From: Isoetes taiwanensis
Taxonomy: Eukaryota; Streptophyta; Lycopodiopsida; Isoetales; Isoetaceae
Direction: 5' to 3'
Length of the DNA: 64,000 nucleotides
Assembly (NCBI GenBank): GCA_021234155.1
Contig: JAJEKV010000020.1
Coordinates: forward strand, 16,793,018 to 16,857,017
Positions within the stretch are counted from its first letter, which is position 1. Each line of letters begins with the position of its first letter. The notes below the pieces were generated by a model. The model saw only the letters and a program-made list of their open reading frames with translations, did no database searches and was not told the origin of the DNA. This document shows positions 56,939 to 64,000 of this stretch, in pieces. Both the position numbers and the translations under genes were made by a program.

Positions 56939-58757
56939 TGAAGGTGTTCCTGGCAAAACCTTCACCCTCAGTGGTTTAGAACCTCTAGGTTGCTTGAGGC
57001 AACCACTCTGAGTGTCAAAATTCCAGAAATAATGCTCAAAAGATTGCTGGAAACAGCTTTCCCTGAAGAGTAAAAAGTCTGCCTCAAAAGAATGGTTGTA
57101 GCTTGCACACCATTCAAGTTTTGAGCATGATTTTTGTCTTCACAGATGCTCAACACCTATATTTGTCAGGCTGCAAAAGTCAGATCAAATCTGTAAGGAG
57201 TAGATAGGCCAAATTCCTGCTCCTGACCCGGTCAATTTATGGTCAATATCCATGGCAGAGAGCTTGATTTATGATCTCGCTATTGGCAGTGAATTTTTTT
57301 GTTTTGTAAGCTTCACCTATTTTGGAAAGGTCTGCATACCAGAGGCCAAGATGTTTTTTTGCAAGTAGAACTCGAAACCTTTTTCTTTTTTGATATTTTT
57401 GCAGACTGCTATAGAGAATAGACAATTGTGAACAAAAATTCTTTCTATGGGAGGAATGCACGCTAACCTAATCTTCCTATGCTCAACATGCACTAAACGA
57501 CAACGTTACCGACTTTAGCATTGCTATCCTTTGCTCTAATGCTCAATGCCAATTTCTTGCTAGAATAGATCTAGATTTGCTCACTCAATCTTGCATTGAC
57601 GAATTGGACTGACAACATGATTGTTTTTGCCTTTGCAGAGGGCATACTAAGTTGACACACTGATAATATTTGGCTACTAGAATAAAACACAGCAAAAAGG
57701 CTTCTGATAACTAATATTTTTGAGAGTAGAACACCAAGTGGCATGAACACTTCACAACAAGGGTCAGATTTTCAATTGATTCAAGTACTCAAAAGATAAC
57801 AATATGGATCCCAAGCTCTGAGTCTTGGGCGCAGGATCAAATAGGTAAACAATCAGTCAATCCGGAGAACTTAGTCAATAATCCAGATTGCAAATCAATT
57901 TTGGAGGTCGGAATCAAGCTCAAATCGATCAAGCCGGTCTTTCTTCAAAGCAAGAAGTCGCTTCTCTGCCTCAAAGCCCTCGAATTTTCCTTCTGTCCAA
58001 AAGCCCCTTTTGTAGATGCTCTGTTTTGTTGAGTTCTTGATCAATTCCCTTTGATTCTCTGTTTTTTAGCTGACAATAGGTATTCTTGGCATCAAACATG
58101 GTGATCCGGCAGGTTTAGGTCATGATTGAGTGATTAGTTTGGCCGGATTAGACGGATCTTGGCACTTCCAGATTTTAGGGTTCATAAAAATGCAGAAGAG
58201 ATATCCCACAGGCCTTTTTCTGCTCGGCGGCTCAAGGTATATAACAAGAAATAAATCCAGTATTTATAATTATAGCGTGCAATATCCACGTGGAATTCGG
58301 TACCTCAACCGCCCCACACGCCCGGATGTTCCACGTGGCATGGGGGAATTGGCTTGGGGAAGAAAAATAGACGGGGGTAGATAGGAAATTTTTTACATCC
58401 CAAGGCCTATGGCACGATTCCCTAGGAGGCAAATATAAGGCTCAAAATAAAACCTTTTTTCAATTTTCTTTTTTTCTATGGGAATCTTTTTTTGCATTTG
58501 AGAAGATTCTGGAATCTTCTCCTGCAATAGGGCACTTTTGGTTTTGGCCTAAAAAAGCTCAAGGAATGAATGATGTGGCATATGGAAGTGATGACAAGGC
58601 TAGGTGAGTATGACATGGCAAATGGTGATGATGACGTGTTAGTCAACTTGGGCTTAGAAAATTCTTTCTAGTCAAAATTGCAAATGATGTGGAGATGATG
58701 TATGTGACATGTGGATAGTGATGAGGTGGTAATGATGATGTGGCAAAGTGATGTGTC
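56939..58757 (-). repeat. 5' LTR of the third gypsy copy, left part
   Basis: Homologous to the LTRs at 20056-22323 and 28312-30584: the shared GGTTTAGAACCTC start, GAAATATCCCAC-like and GACAAGGCTAGGTGAGTATGACATGG-like stretches, in the same order. It ends at 58757, where a different element is inserted; the LTR resumes at 63719. With both parts it is about 2.1 kb and runs off the window. It is more diverged from the other two LTRs than they are from each other. Confidence 0.8.
58753..58757. repeat. Target-site duplication, left (GTGTC)
   Basis: Identical to 63719-63723; 5 bp is the usual size for LTR elements. Confidence 0.9.
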
Positions 58758-59539
58758 TGATATGGCTCACAACAATAAACCATTCCTTTCACCTTTTCCA
58801 AATAGAATACCTGACCTCTTCAAGCAAATTATATTCTCATAATCTGTAAACCGTCTAGGTTTGCTAGAGAATCCACAGAATAAACCGTTAGCAATGACAA
58901 AATGATCTAAGTATGAAATAAATAAGCACAGATCCAATGAACATAAGATACAAGTTACACCAATTGATATGAACTACACCAATAGCTCAGAATGACCTGG
59001 CTCTAGTTCACCAAAACTAGAGGAAGATTCTCAATACAAAGCAAATAATGGCAGTTCTCCATCCAACCGGGCCAACCGATGTTGAGATCTGGCAAATCAA
59101 CAGCAAGGCGGAAGGCAATGGCAATTTCTAGGCAAGGAGCTTGGTTCTCTTCAAAAAGGCAATCTTGGTTGTGCAGTCCAGTCTGACCCACGGCCACTCT
59201 TTTGGCGATATCTCACGATCCGCAAGGAGTTAGCGAATGAGCCACCCCAATCCGGAAACTAGACACTGAGATCTTTCCAATGAGCCCTGGATCGCAATAA
59301 TCCGACTTATATTCGCTGAGATATGACCTTTTGAAGTTGGCCTTTTAGAAACTGCTATTTTTGGACTGAGATATTATCAAGGAGATTAGCTTGGCTTAAT
59401 AGATATTATTTGACCATAATCATTACAATTGCCATTTAATTGCCTTGCCATGCTATTAGTTTGCCCTTCTCACACACCCATGCTAGTCCACCAAGACCAA
59501 CGTTCAAGGCCACTCCCCCGAGCTACCATATCCATATCA
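58758..59539 (-). repeat. Outer element 3' LTR (782 bp)
   Basis: TG...CA ends. It shares the variants GCGAATGAGCC and CCGGAAACTAG (about 59232-59262) with the other outer LTR. A 64-codon open frame at 59003-59197 recurs in the inner LTRs but is broken by a stop in the outer 5' LTR, so it is not regarded as a gene. Confidence 0.92.
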
Positions 59540-59553
59540 ATTCCTCCCTTTTT
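59540..59553 (-). other. Polypurine tract of the outer element
   Basis: On -, AAAAAGGGAGGAAT sits immediately before the 3' LTR, where plus-strand DNA synthesis is primed. The same tract precedes the inner 3' LTR at 61364-61377. Confidence 0.85.
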
Positions 59554-59638
59554 AAAGGCAACTGACCTCAGTTGTGTCCATAAACAAATTAAGCACCAAC
59601 TTAATTTATCCAATTGAGCACCAACTCAATTTATACAT

Positions 59639-59689
59639 GAGCGCTCGCTTAGCATGCGAGAGGTATGGGGATCGATACCCCACTTCTAT
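59639..59689 (+). pseudogene. tRNA-Ala (AGC) 3' fragment at a retroelement junction
   Basis: GAGCGCTCGCTTAGCATGCG AGAGG, then ATGGGGATCGATACCCCA, correspond to the D-arm end, anticodon arm (AGC anticodon), variable loop and T arm of plant tRNA-Ala. The acceptor 5' strand and most of the D arm (about 20 nt) are missing, and the acceptor 3' strand has diverged (CTTCTAT). In the T stem the outer C-G pair known from plant tRNA-Ala is T-A here, which keeps the stem paired. The fragment ends exactly where the inner LTR begins (59690). It is not a functional tRNA gene. Confidence 0.85.
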
Positions 59690-60471
59690 TGATATGGATA
59701 TGGTAGCTCGGGGGAGTGGCCTTGAACGTTGGTCTTGGTGGACTAGCATGGGTGTGTGAGAAGGGCAAACTAATAGCATGGCAAGGCAATTAAATGGCAA
59801 TTGTAATGATTATGGTCAAATAATATCTATTAAGCCAAGCTAATCTCCTTGATAATATCTCAGTCCAAAAATAGCAGTTTCTAAAAGGCCAACTTCAAAA
59901 GGTCATATCTCAGCGAATATAAGTCGGATTATTGCGATCCAGGGCTCATTGGAAAGATCTCAGTGTCTAGTTTTCGGATTGGGGTGGCTCATTTGCTAAC
60001 TCCTTGCGGATCGTGAGATATCGCTAAAAGAGTGGCCGTGGGTCAGACTGGACTGCACAACCAAGATTGCCTTTTTGAAGAGAACCAAGCTCCTTGCCTA
60101 GAAATTGCCATTGCCTTCCGCCTTGCTGTTGATTTGCCAGATCTCAACATCGGTTGGCCCGGTTGGATGGAGAACTGCCATTATTTGCTTTGTATTGAGA
60201 ATCTTCCTCTAGTTTTGGTGAACTAGAGCCAGGTCATTCTGAGCTATTGGTGTAGTTCATATCAATTGGTGTAACTTGTATCTTATGTTCATTGGATCTG
60301 TGCTTATTTATTTCATACTTAGATCATTTTGTCATTGCTAACGGTTTATTCTGTGGATTCTCTAGCAAACCTAGACGGTTTACAGATTATGAGAATATGA
60401 TTTGCTTGAAGAGGTCAGGTATTCTATTTGGAAAAGGTGAAAGGAATGGTTTATTGTTGTGAGCCATATCA

Positions 60472-61377
60472 ATTGGTATCAGAGCCAAGCTATTCCTAAA
60501 GTTTGCAAAGACTTTCGGTTGGTGCTGGAGATTGCAAACAGGAATAGAGAATCTTATTCTGGCTATTCTTGATGTTTGTAAGTCATCTAGTTGGTGCTAG
60601 TGATTGCAAACTGGAATAGAATTCCTCCTCCTAAGAATCTAAATGATCTTCTTTCTATGAATTTTAACTTCTTGGATCATTCTTTCCAATCCAATTCTAC
60701 TCAGAGTAATCAATCTTTGGATATCGGTACGACAAAAATTGTTTGTTGCAGGAAACATATAGGTGCAGGTGATTGGTGACGTGGAAGAAGCAGAGGGAAC
60801 TGAGCCTAATCTTCCTGACCAATCCATTTCGTTTGCCAAAATGGATCTCCTTCCAATCAAGCCTAACCTGGACTGACAATCCATCTCCTTGGCCAGGATG
60901 GATCTCCGTTGAAACGTTTCCTGCATCTACGGAGGGCGTATCTATGGTGGACGGATCAAAATCAATCTTTATCTGAACTCTCTATCCTTAACAAATCTTG
61001 AACTATTCCAAACTAAACAAATTCTAAACAATGTAAGTTGCGGCCCATTGTTTTAGTAAGATGTCTTAATAATGAATATCTGTCTGTAAGAAATTGTAGT
61101 TTAAAGGTAGAGGTGACTTTAAAATCTGTTAAAAGATTTTAAAGGATTCATGCCTTTAGAGAAATTGTAAATCTATTTTATGATTGTATTGCTTCCTTCT
61201 AATGAATGATCATAATCCTAGCCTTTGGTCCTTAAAATGGATTGAGTTGGTGCTCATGTACAAATTGAGTTGGTGCTCATGTATAAATTGAGTTGGTGCT
61301 CAATTGGATAAATTAAGTTGGTGCTTAATTTGTTTATGGACACAACTGAGGTCAGTTGCCTTCAAAAAGGGAGGAAT
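60472..61377 (+). other. Interior of the inner non-autonomous element
   Basis: 906 bp between the LTRs. Only short frames (for example 60591-60779) and no retroelement protein motif. Near the 3' end it has three imperfect tandem units around AAATTGAGTTGGTGCTCATGT (61240-61305). The matching outer interior is 62149-62936 plus 59540-59640. Confidence 0.85.
60474..60486 (+). other. Primer-binding site of the inner element
   Basis: TGGTATCAGAGCC follows the LTR end after 2 bp. It is the common initiator tRNA-Met primer site of plant LTR elements. The outer copy has TGGTATCGAGCC (- strand, 62923-62934), one base shorter. Confidence 0.9.
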
Positions 61378-62148
61378 TGATATGGATATGGTAGCTCGGG
61401 GGAGTGGCCTTGAACGTTGGTCTTGGTGGACTAGCATGGGTGTGTGAGAAGGGCAAACTAATAGCATGGCAAGGCAATTAAATGGCAATTGTAATGATTA
61501 TGGTCAAATAATATCTATTAAGCCAAGCTAATCTCCTTGATAATATCTCAGTCCAAAAATAGCAGTTTCTAAAAGGCCAACTTCAAAAGGTCATATCTCA
61601 GCGAATATAAGTCGGATTATTGCGATCCAGGGCTCATTGGAAAGATCTCAGTGTCTAGTTTTCGGATTGGGGTGGCTCATTTGCTAACTCCTTGCGGATC
61701 GTGAGATATCGCCAAAAGAGTGGCCGTGGGTCAGACTGGACTGCACAACCAAGATTGCCTTTTTGAAGAGAACCAAGCTCCTTGCCTAGAAATTGCCATT
61801 GCCTTCCGCCTTGCTGTTGATTTGCCAGATCTCAACATCGGTTGGCCCGGTTGGATGGAGAACTGCCATTATTTGCTTTGTATTGAGAATCTTCCTCTAG
61901 TTTTGGTGAACTAGAGCCAGGTCATTCTGAGCTATTGGTGTAGTTCATATCAATTGGTGTAACTTGTATCTTATGTTCATTGAATCTGTGCTTATTTATT
62001 TCATACTTAGATCATTTTGTCATTGCTAACGGTTTATTCTGTGGATTCTCTAGCAAACCTAGACGGTTTACAGATTATGAGAATATGATTTGCTTGAAGA
62101 GATCAGGTATTCTATTTGGAAAAGGTGAAAGGAATGGTTTATTGTTGT
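61378..62148 (+). repeat. Inner element 3' LTR, truncated by 11 bp
   Basis: Identical in plan to 59690-60471 but stops at ...TTATTGTTGT and passes directly into outer-element interior (ACATGAGCACCAACTC). Confidence 0.92.
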
Positions 62149-62936
62149 ACATGAGCACCAACTCAATCCATTTTAAGGACCAAAGGCTAGGATTATGATC
62201 ATTCATTAGAAGGAAGCAATACAATCATAAAATAGATTTACAATTTCTCTAAAGGCATGAATCCTTTAAAATCTTTTAACAGATTTTAAAGTCACCTCTA
62301 CCTTTAAACTACAATTTCTTACAGACAGATATTCATTATTAAGACATCTTACTAAAACAATGGGCCGCAACTTACATTGTTTAGAATTTGTTTAGTTTGG
62401 AATAGTTCAAGATTTGTTAAGGATAGAGAGTTCAGATAAAGATTGATTTTGATCCGTCCACCATAGATACGCCCTCCGTAGATGCAGGAAAAGTTTCAAC
62501 GGAGATCCATCCCGCCAAGGAGATGGATTGTCACCCGTGTTAGGCTTGATTGGAAGGAGATCCATTTTGGCAAACGAAATGGATTGGTCAGGAAGATTAG
62601 GCTCAGTTCCCTCTGCTTCTTCCACGTCACCAATCACCTGCACCTATATGTTTCCTGCAACAAACAATTTTTGTCGTACCGATATCCAAAGATTGATTAC
62701 TCTGAGTAGAATTGGATTGGAAAGAATGATCCAAGAAGTTAAAATTCATAGAAAGAAGATCATTTAGATTCTTAGGAGGAGGAATTCTATTCCAGTTTGC
62801 AATCACTAGCACCAACTAGATGACTTACAAACATCAAGAATAGCCGTAATAATGTTCTCTATTCCTCGCTTGCAATCTCCAAAGACCAACCGTAAGTCTT
62901 TGCAAACTTTAGGAATAGCCCTGGCTCGATACCAAT

Positions 62937-63718
62937 TGATATGGCTCACAACAATAAACCATTCCTTTCACCTTTTCCAAATAGAATACCTGACCTCTTC
63001 AAGCAAATCATATTCTCATAATCTGTAAACCGTCTAGGTTTGCTAGAGAATCCACAGAATAAACCGTTAGCAATGACAAAATGATCTAAGTATGAAATAA
63101 ATAAGCACAGATCCAATGAACATAAGATACAAGTTACACCAATTGATATGAACTACACCAATAGCTCAGAATGACCTGGCTCTAGTTCACCAAAACTAGA
63201 GGAAGATTCTCAATACAAAGCAAATAATGGCAGTTCTCCATCCAACCGGGCCAACCGATGTTGAGATCTGGCAAATCAACAGCAAGGTGGAAGGCAATGG
63301 CAATTTCTAGGCAAGGAGCTTGGTTCTCTTAAAAAAGGCAATCTTGGTTGTGCAGTCCAGTCTGACCCACGGCCACTCTTTTGGCAATATCTCACGATCC
63401 GCAAGGAGTTAGCGAATGAGCCACCCCAATCCGGAAACTAGACACTGAGATCTTTCCAATGAGCCCTGGATCGCAATAATCCGACTTATATTCGCTGAGA
63501 TATGACCTTTTGAAGTTGGCCTTTTAGAAACTGCTATTTTTGGACTGAGATATTATCAAGGAGATTAGCTTGGCTTAATAGATATTATTTGACCATAATC
63601 ATTACAATTGCCATTTAATTGCCTTGCCATGCTATTAGTTTGCCCTTCTCACACACCCATGCTAGTCCACCAAGACCAACGTTCAAGGCCACTCCCCCGA
63701 GCTACCATATCCATATCA
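62937..63718 (-). repeat. Outer element 5' LTR (782 bp)
   Basis: Same length and orientation as 58758-59539, differing at only a few positions (for example GGCAATATCTC for GGCGATATCTC, AAGGTGG for AAGGCGG). One change turns a GAA codon into TAA in the 64-codon frame kept by the other LTR copies. Confidence 0.92.
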
Positions 63719-63723
63719 GTGTC
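63719..63723. repeat. Target-site duplication, right (GTGTC)
   Basis: Partner of 58753-58757. Confidence 0.9.
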
Positions 63724-64000
63724 ATCTTATGGGTGCAAGTTTGGTGCTTTGGGATAGATTTAGATTTTGAACATGGAAATGGAAGCATGACATGGCATGG
63801 CTAGAATGGTGATGTGTATGGTGACTTGGCATATAGAATGAAGTGTAAGGTGACTTGGCACATAAAATGCATTTTTCATAGGCCAATTTTTGTGAAATGC
63901 AACTTTTTGGCATTCCCTAGGGCACACTTGAGTTTTGAACATTTCCCTTAGGGATTTTGCAACTTTTCCTTTTTCTTTGACCACATGAAATGTTGACTTT
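63719..64000 (-). repeat. 5' LTR of the third gypsy copy, right part (cut by window end)
   Basis: Continues the interrupted LTR. GTGACTTGGCACATAAAATGCA, TTGGCATTCCCTAGGG and the terminal CCCTTAGGGATTTTGCAAC ... TGTTGACTT correspond to 30010-30145 of the 28312-30584 LTR. Roughly 180 bp of LTR should lie beyond the window. Confidence 0.75.

Follow-up and report, generated by a model that had tools for sequence, protein, structure and literature searches.

In yeast, cDNA of the retrotransposon Ty1 can be joined into an induced break; the inserts are drawn from all regions of Ty1 with a hotspot at the 3′ LTR, and 40 of the 56 3′-LTR insertions contained nucleotides that are present only in the cDNA (PMC10802722). 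In mouse zygotes, breaks are repaired with products of reverse transcription. The inserts described there are pieces cut short at both ends, with at most a truncated LTR; they show microhomology and mostly lack a target duplication, and more than one of them can be joined at a single break (PMC4516963). For I-SceI breaks in tobacco, microhomology of 2–7 bp was reported at five of six assessable junctions, and one insert partly matched a tRNA-Ile gene and was, according to the authors, maybe derived from a SINE (PMC3289645). Joining of LTR cDNA ends is also known from two-LTR joints and tandem LTR elements, for which integrase-independent routes have been discussed (PMC12786077, PMC11899658), and plants, unlike yeast, possess a bona fide alternative end-joining pathway according to a review (PMC12786077).

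Here we analyse a locus in a window of 64,000 nucleotides (the whole stretch of DNA studied, from the lycophyte Isoetes taiwanensis) in which an LTR element has seemingly entered the chromosome by repair and not by integrase. The event belongs to a kind of process known from yeast, mouse and plants, of which it is a clean natural example, recorded at base resolution and with an original target that can be read from the inserted copy itself. As in the capture of Ty1 in yeast (PMC10802722), retrotransposon cDNA would have been joined into a break, but the present insert is natural, contains one whole and one nearly whole LTR together with filler from a tRNA gene, and lies in a plant genome. It shares with the mouse zygote inserts an LTR retroelement as source, a truncated end, short microhomology, several pieces at one break and the lack, there in most cases, of a target duplication, whereas the element is here nearly complete and spans 2,459 bp from the complete 5′ LTR to the almost complete 3′ LTR (PMC4516963). 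The combination of insertion with a probable deletion is common to the I-SceI inserts of tobacco and Arabidopsis, and the microhomology to those of tobacco, but the parts of that report considered here contain no full retrotransposon cDNA (PMC3289645). Two-LTR joints and tandem elements likewise consist of end-joined LTR cDNA ends, but they are circles or tandems, whereas the present case is an inverted nested copy with filler (PMC12786077, PMC11899658). A plant case with near-full-length LTR cDNA and tRNA-gene filler was not found among the open-licence papers listed by the literature searches. A paper by Li et al. from 2022 reportedly deals with integrase-independent retrotransposition.

Results

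An inverted copy interrupts the outer LTR element

The outer LTR element occupies positions 58758-63718 on the minus strand and has intact TG/CA ends and a GTGTC target duplication, which comparison of the flanks placed at 58753..58757 on the left and at 63719..63723 on the right. Its 3′ LTR (58758..59539) and 5′ LTR (62937..63718), both on the minus strand and both 782 bp long, are separated by four substitutions in 782 positions. The interior is interrupted by a closely related copy on the plus strand, which is thus inverted relative to the outer element. Reading from the left, the insert opens with a 49-nt piece of a tRNA-Ala(AGC) gene, after which come the two bases AT and then the element proper: a complete LTR of 782 bp, an interior of 906 bp and a 3′ LTR that lacks its last 11 bp.

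The inner 5′ LTR (59690..60471, plus strand) is complete. The inner interior (60472..61377, plus strand) is a deletion derivative that starts with AT and the primer-binding site TGGTATCAGAGC, two bases after the LTR, and ends with the purine tract AAAAAGGGAGGAAT, which adjoins the next LTR; we take initiator tRNA-Met to be the primer of this family. The inner 3′ LTR (61378..62148, plus strand) comprises 771 of 782 bp, and the match ends 11 bp short exactly as the preliminary description had reported; depending on how the junction bases TTGT are assigned, the trimming amounts to 11–15 bp. Three differences were found over the 770 aligned positions of the inner LTR pair. The features of ordinary LTR-retrotransposon integration are absent from the inner copy, since its CA end is missing and comparison of the flanks gave no integrase-type 5-bp target duplication.

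Among the reading frames that overlap 59600-63800 (starts ATG, GTG or TTG), none was longer than 95 aa. With 782-bp LTRs, a primer-binding site and a polypurine tract but no long coding region, the inner and outer copies look like non-autonomous elements of the TRIM/LARD-like class. At LTR offsets 284 and 304 each of the four LTR comparisons separates the two copies, and several sites in the interior differ as well; the inner and outer copies are therefore not copies of one identical RNA. Both offsets are also variable among other copies of the family.

The filler matches tRNA-Ala genes

The tRNA piece (59639..59687, plus strand) is identical to nt 22–70 of a 73-nt tRNA-Ala(AGC) gene, and in the window itself Rfam and ARAGORN gave no match. 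A search of the assembly with a 51-nt query, allowing up to three mismatches, returned eight other matches to the piece. Five of these match all 49 nt and lie on three other contigs (C941, C1073 and C1086); these five and one of the remaining three were fetched, and ARAGORN called tRNA-Ala(AGC) in all six. A SINE or another repeated carrier of the piece is thus not supported, as the piece has only these eight other places at this threshold and all six fetched are tRNA genes. All eight continue as CTTCTCC without any LTR, whereas the window reads CTTCT-AT-TGATATGG. Because the eight genomic matches read CTTCTCC there, the AT at 59688-59689 is not tRNA sequence; the tRNA piece had been described as abutting the TG of the LTR exactly, and this was off by two bases.

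When the genome was searched for further joins between tRNA-Ala and the LTR, the 1.66-Gb assembly yielded a single match at up to three mismatches, the locus itself; in these searches the best candidates were scored and very common words were skipped, so that one match is not proof of uniqueness. A standing tRNA/LTR chimera carried by many copies of the family was rejected on this result. The first four bases of the piece, GAGC, are also present in the left flank as microhomology, and this overlap at the junction together with the identity to five tRNA-Ala genes marks the piece as templated filler.

The piece also retains information on whether its source was DNA or RNA. In tRNA-Ala(AGC) position 34 is expected to be inosine, and the piece has A both there and at position 37. 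The A37 of the gene is converted to N1-methylinosine in the tRNA-Ala(AGC) of wild-type Arabidopsis, and cDNA made from it therefore shows a T at this position (PMC6874348). Moreover, the piece stops 3 nt before the gene end, within the acceptor stem, and no CCA is added. Because A37 and A34 are kept, CCA is absent and the piece stops within the acceptor stem, the filler was most likely copied or taken from tRNA gene DNA and not from mature tRNA, presuming that the modification of position 37 is conserved in this species. The original identification of the filler as tRNA-Ala thus stands, and its source is refined from tRNA to a tRNA gene. Edited tRNA positions in this way offer a means to tell gene-DNA filler from RNA filler.

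The AT dinucleotide fits an unprocessed cDNA end

The AT that separates the tRNA piece from the LTR (59688..59689, plus strand) may represent the end of an unprocessed cDNA. Next to the polypurine tract, TG has AT directly before it, and the same two bases lie between CA and the primer-binding site, so that ATTGATATGG and CCATATCAAT form a perfect inverted repeat. The ends of an unprocessed cDNA are accordingly expected to read AT|TG...CA|AT, from which integrase would trim the outer bases. AT before TG and a resected 3′ LTR that lacks 11 bp together fit a linear cDNA that was not processed by integrase, although two bases are weak evidence by themselves and the AT could be a chance match, at a cost of about 10%. 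We scanned 45 LTR starts that matched 30 LTR bases exactly and had a non-A base at −3, and AT preceded TG in five, against 4.5 expected from the column frequencies. Hence AT before TG is not in excess genome-wide, and its use as a genome-wide footprint of unprocessed capture was dropped. The present insert and the family copy L021 are among the five; three of the other starts with AT were fetched and showed nothing decisive.

The inner copy shows the likely state of the target before insertion

The insert is flanked by a 9-bp direct repeat, TACATGAGC, found by sequence comparison at 59634..59642 on the left and at 62148..62156 on the right. The counterpart of the broken target is intact in the inner interior, where 61241..61325 (plus strand) contains two 23-bp minisatellite units, each with TACATGAGC in the orientation of the outer flanks. 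Copies of the family differ in having one unit or two (49 pattern matches), and many have one. The interior-deletion junction that defines the subfamily was complete in three of the best 40 of 440 candidates, namely the inner copy, the outer copy and L024 (C941). Both intact members detected, the inner copy and L024, have two units, of C-then-T type, and the left unit that remains in the outer element is of T type. Because both intact detected members have two units, the target in the outer element was most simply two-unit as well, in which case both copies of TACATGAGC would have existed before the insertion.

Alignment of both junctions with the two-unit counterpart at 61241-61325 gives the target loss and the overlaps. 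If the target had two units, comparison with the intact counterpart inside the inner element leaves 11 bp unambiguously missing and 19 bp at most, a range that includes the loss of about 15 bp given in the preliminary description. The left junction, between chromosome and tRNA gene, has GAGC in common, and the right one, between LTR and chromosome, has TTGT (62145-62148, plus strand), the last four bases of the inner 3′ LTR. Both overlaps had been noted before and are seen by alignment, with TTGT relying on the presumed two-unit target. In 20,000 random joins inside the window, at least four common bases occurred in 373, about 1.9% per junction, which corresponds to a chance of roughly 0.03% for two independent junctions. 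With a one-unit target, the 9 bp would count as a genuine duplication and no target sequence would be missing; the overlap on the right would shrink to one T, and GAGC would stay. The claim that the inner copy lacks a target duplication thus holds for a 5-bp duplication and is qualified by the 9-bp TACATGAGC on both sides of the insert.

Most readable relatives have a 5-bp duplication

As controls we fetched 33 copies of the family, hand-picked from the pattern matches with most tandem-array copies left out. Left extensions were obtained for 20 copies and further ends for L021, L026, L038, L043, L045 and L034; 16 copies with one end unread were dropped, and 17 were readable at both ends. An exact 5-bp duplication was found in 12 of these 17 (L016, L019, L020, L022, L024, L027, L028, L032, L034, L037, L042 and L043, with L027, L034 and L043 scored by eye from terminal sequences), none in three (L021, L026 and L038), and an ambiguous result in two, as L031 lies inside a CT repeat and the 3′ LTR of L025 is cut short. 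The family thus mostly integrates normally.

The lack of a duplication is not unique to the present locus, as L021, L026 and L038 likewise have none, and such copies are not all explained. In L021, AT stands on both sides of the LTR termini, and this copy is a possible, though unproven, second capture event. L038 was considered as a perfect two-LTR joint and rejected, as its 3′ flank enters unrelated sequence with a PBS-like stretch of its own. L034 is a composite of the form LTR-LTR-interior-LTR. One of its LTRs lacks the last 18 bp and is joined to AT|TG with no purine tract nearby, and an AAAAC duplication lies outside the whole composite. This structure fits cDNA ends that were joined prior to integration.

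Discussion

Repair of a double-strand break by microhomology-assisted end joining of linear cDNA and tRNA-gene filler is probably the origin of the insert. The preliminary description had read the locus as a break repaired with linear retrotransposon cDNA plus a tRNA sequence, and this reading is supported by the single match of the tRNA/LTR join, the 5-bp duplications in 12 of 17 readable relatives, the AT in front of TG and the trimmed 3′ LTR. From the order and identity of the pieces and the bases that they have in common, we infer that there was a break, that the donor was cDNA, that an alternative or polymerase-theta-like end-joining pathway acted, and in which direction copying went. The break would have occurred among the 23-bp repeats of the outer element, and end joining would have captured there a linear cDNA from a sister element, not yet processed by integrase. 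On the left, the chromosomal end (...GAGC) may have primed on, or been joined to, a tRNA-Ala gene through 4 bp, after which 45 more bases of the gene would have been copied or ligated. The filler and the 5′ end of the cDNA (AT + TG...) would then have been joined with no bases in common, and the other cDNA end, trimmed by 11–15 LTR bases plus any bases outside CA, would have been joined to the right chromosomal end through TTGT, with a loss of 11–19 bp of target. The data are compatible with ligation as well as with template switching, and with joining in the chromosome as well as between cDNAs prior to integration.

Other origins need to be weighed against end joining of cDNA in the chromosome. 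If the target had a single 23-bp unit, the insert would lie in a perfect 9-bp duplication of TACATGAGC without loss, as might result from fill-in at a staggered break or from an insertion process with a 9-bp stagger. The repeat does flank the insert exactly, many copies of the family have one unit, and mouse retroelement inserts with 4-bp or 10-bp duplications are reported, those of 10 bp being explained by break events rather than by integrase (PMC4516963). However, the inner copy and L024, the sole intact subfamily members detected, are both two-unit and C-then-T, the left unit that remains in the outer element is of T type, one unit would need an extra event, and by inspection the ends of the insert have no inverted repeat of their own, so that we consider a one-unit target unlikely, if the most credible of the alternatives. 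Somewhat less likely still, two sister cDNAs would have been end-joined with the tRNA-gene filler before integration, and integrase would then have inserted the composite through its outer ends, giving the GTGTC duplication. Such an order would suit a subfamily with three members detected among the best 40 of 440 candidates, two of them nested, the similar LTR divergence of the two copies (4/782 and 3/770) and the precedent of L034, an LTR(truncated)-AT-LTR-interior-LTR structure with the AAAAC duplication outside. It requires, on the other hand, a break in the middle of a cDNA and access to tRNA-gene DNA; the differences at LTR offsets 284 and 304 and at interior sites show that the two copies do not come from one identical RNA, more copies may have existed in the past than are present now, and similar LTR ages are compatible with either order.

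A donor that already existed in the genome, with an element in or beside a tRNA-Ala gene from which the tRNA/LTR segment was copied here as DNA, would agree with the break inserts of tobacco and Arabidopsis that were judged to be nuclear in origin (PMC3289645). But the search that allowed three mismatches gave no second tRNA/LTR join, each of the eight other tRNA matches runs on into CTTCTCC and not into an LTR, and 5 bp of target would be expected before TG where AT is found, which makes such a donor improbable. Slightly less probable still is a jump of reverse transcriptase from the cDNA end onto a tRNA molecule in the virus-like particle. The polarity would be right for it, as it is with its 3′ side that the tRNA meets the 5′ end of the plus-strand cDNA; against it, the piece ends 3 nt before the gene end without CCA, the 4-bp overlap with the chromosome sits at the tRNA end, and position 34 reads A where inosine is expected. 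Position 37 reads A as well, against T in the tRNA-Ala(AGC) cDNA of Arabidopsis (PMC6874348). We give equally little credit to an artefact of assembly, or to a normally integrated copy whose two borders were damaged later. Both junctions come from the assembled sequence, which could be wrong, and inverted repeats are difficult for assemblers. However, damage would have to create a tRNA piece at one border and yet spare the TG, and the inner copy, with LTR and interior variants different from those of the outer one, is not its mirror, so that a fold-back artefact is unlikely.

If composites do form before integration, concatenation of cDNA in the nucleus would be a source of nested inverted retrotransposons, which are normally read as successive insertions, and dating of genome growth by nesting order would need care.

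Two of the three interior-deletion subfamily members detected among the best 40 of 440 candidates are nested in each other. A random meeting of the two looks unlikely, as a matter of judgement. A linked origin of the pair is plausible, whether through sister cDNAs in one nucleus, a shared burst of activity, cDNA guided by homology or joining prior to integration.

Further copies of the LTR family and the tRNA-Ala locus

Among the 49 matches to the 23-bp interior repeat pattern in the assembly, 21 are held by a single 46-kb stretch of contig C233 (105514–151947), where spacing from match to match is about 1.2 kb, 2 kb or larger; this stretch is a tandem, satellite-like array of the LTR family. 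On C1108 (349400–356088; L034, L068 and L075), we found a composite in the order LTR (truncated by 18), AT, LTR, interior, LTR, with the duplication AAAAC on its outside, and it looks like a two-LTR type joint that was formed prior to integration. Another copy, at C1018:42236000–42239700 (L021, L059, L077 and L078), lacks a 5-bp duplication and has AT next to its LTR termini at either side; it is possibly a second integrase-independent capture.

In the interior of the outer element (window 62148–62936), clustered multi-base changes relative to both of its relatives lie at interior offsets 9–88 and 396–423, and among them the primer-binding site has lost one base. In contrast to this changed interior, the LTRs of the outer element are nearly identical.

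Two copies, L025 and L073, have an unrelated upstream sequence in common, GCTAGTGCGTAACATT, and a near match to it is present in L038, but downstream and followed by a primer-binding-site-like stretch. This pattern perhaps reflects insertion close to the LTR end of another family.

The tRNA-Ala locus L047 (C941:10698650–10699050) carries two tRNA-Ala(AGC) genes on the same strand, 125 bp from start to start, and their downstream flanks are identical across the 29 bases compared: perhaps a local tandem duplication.
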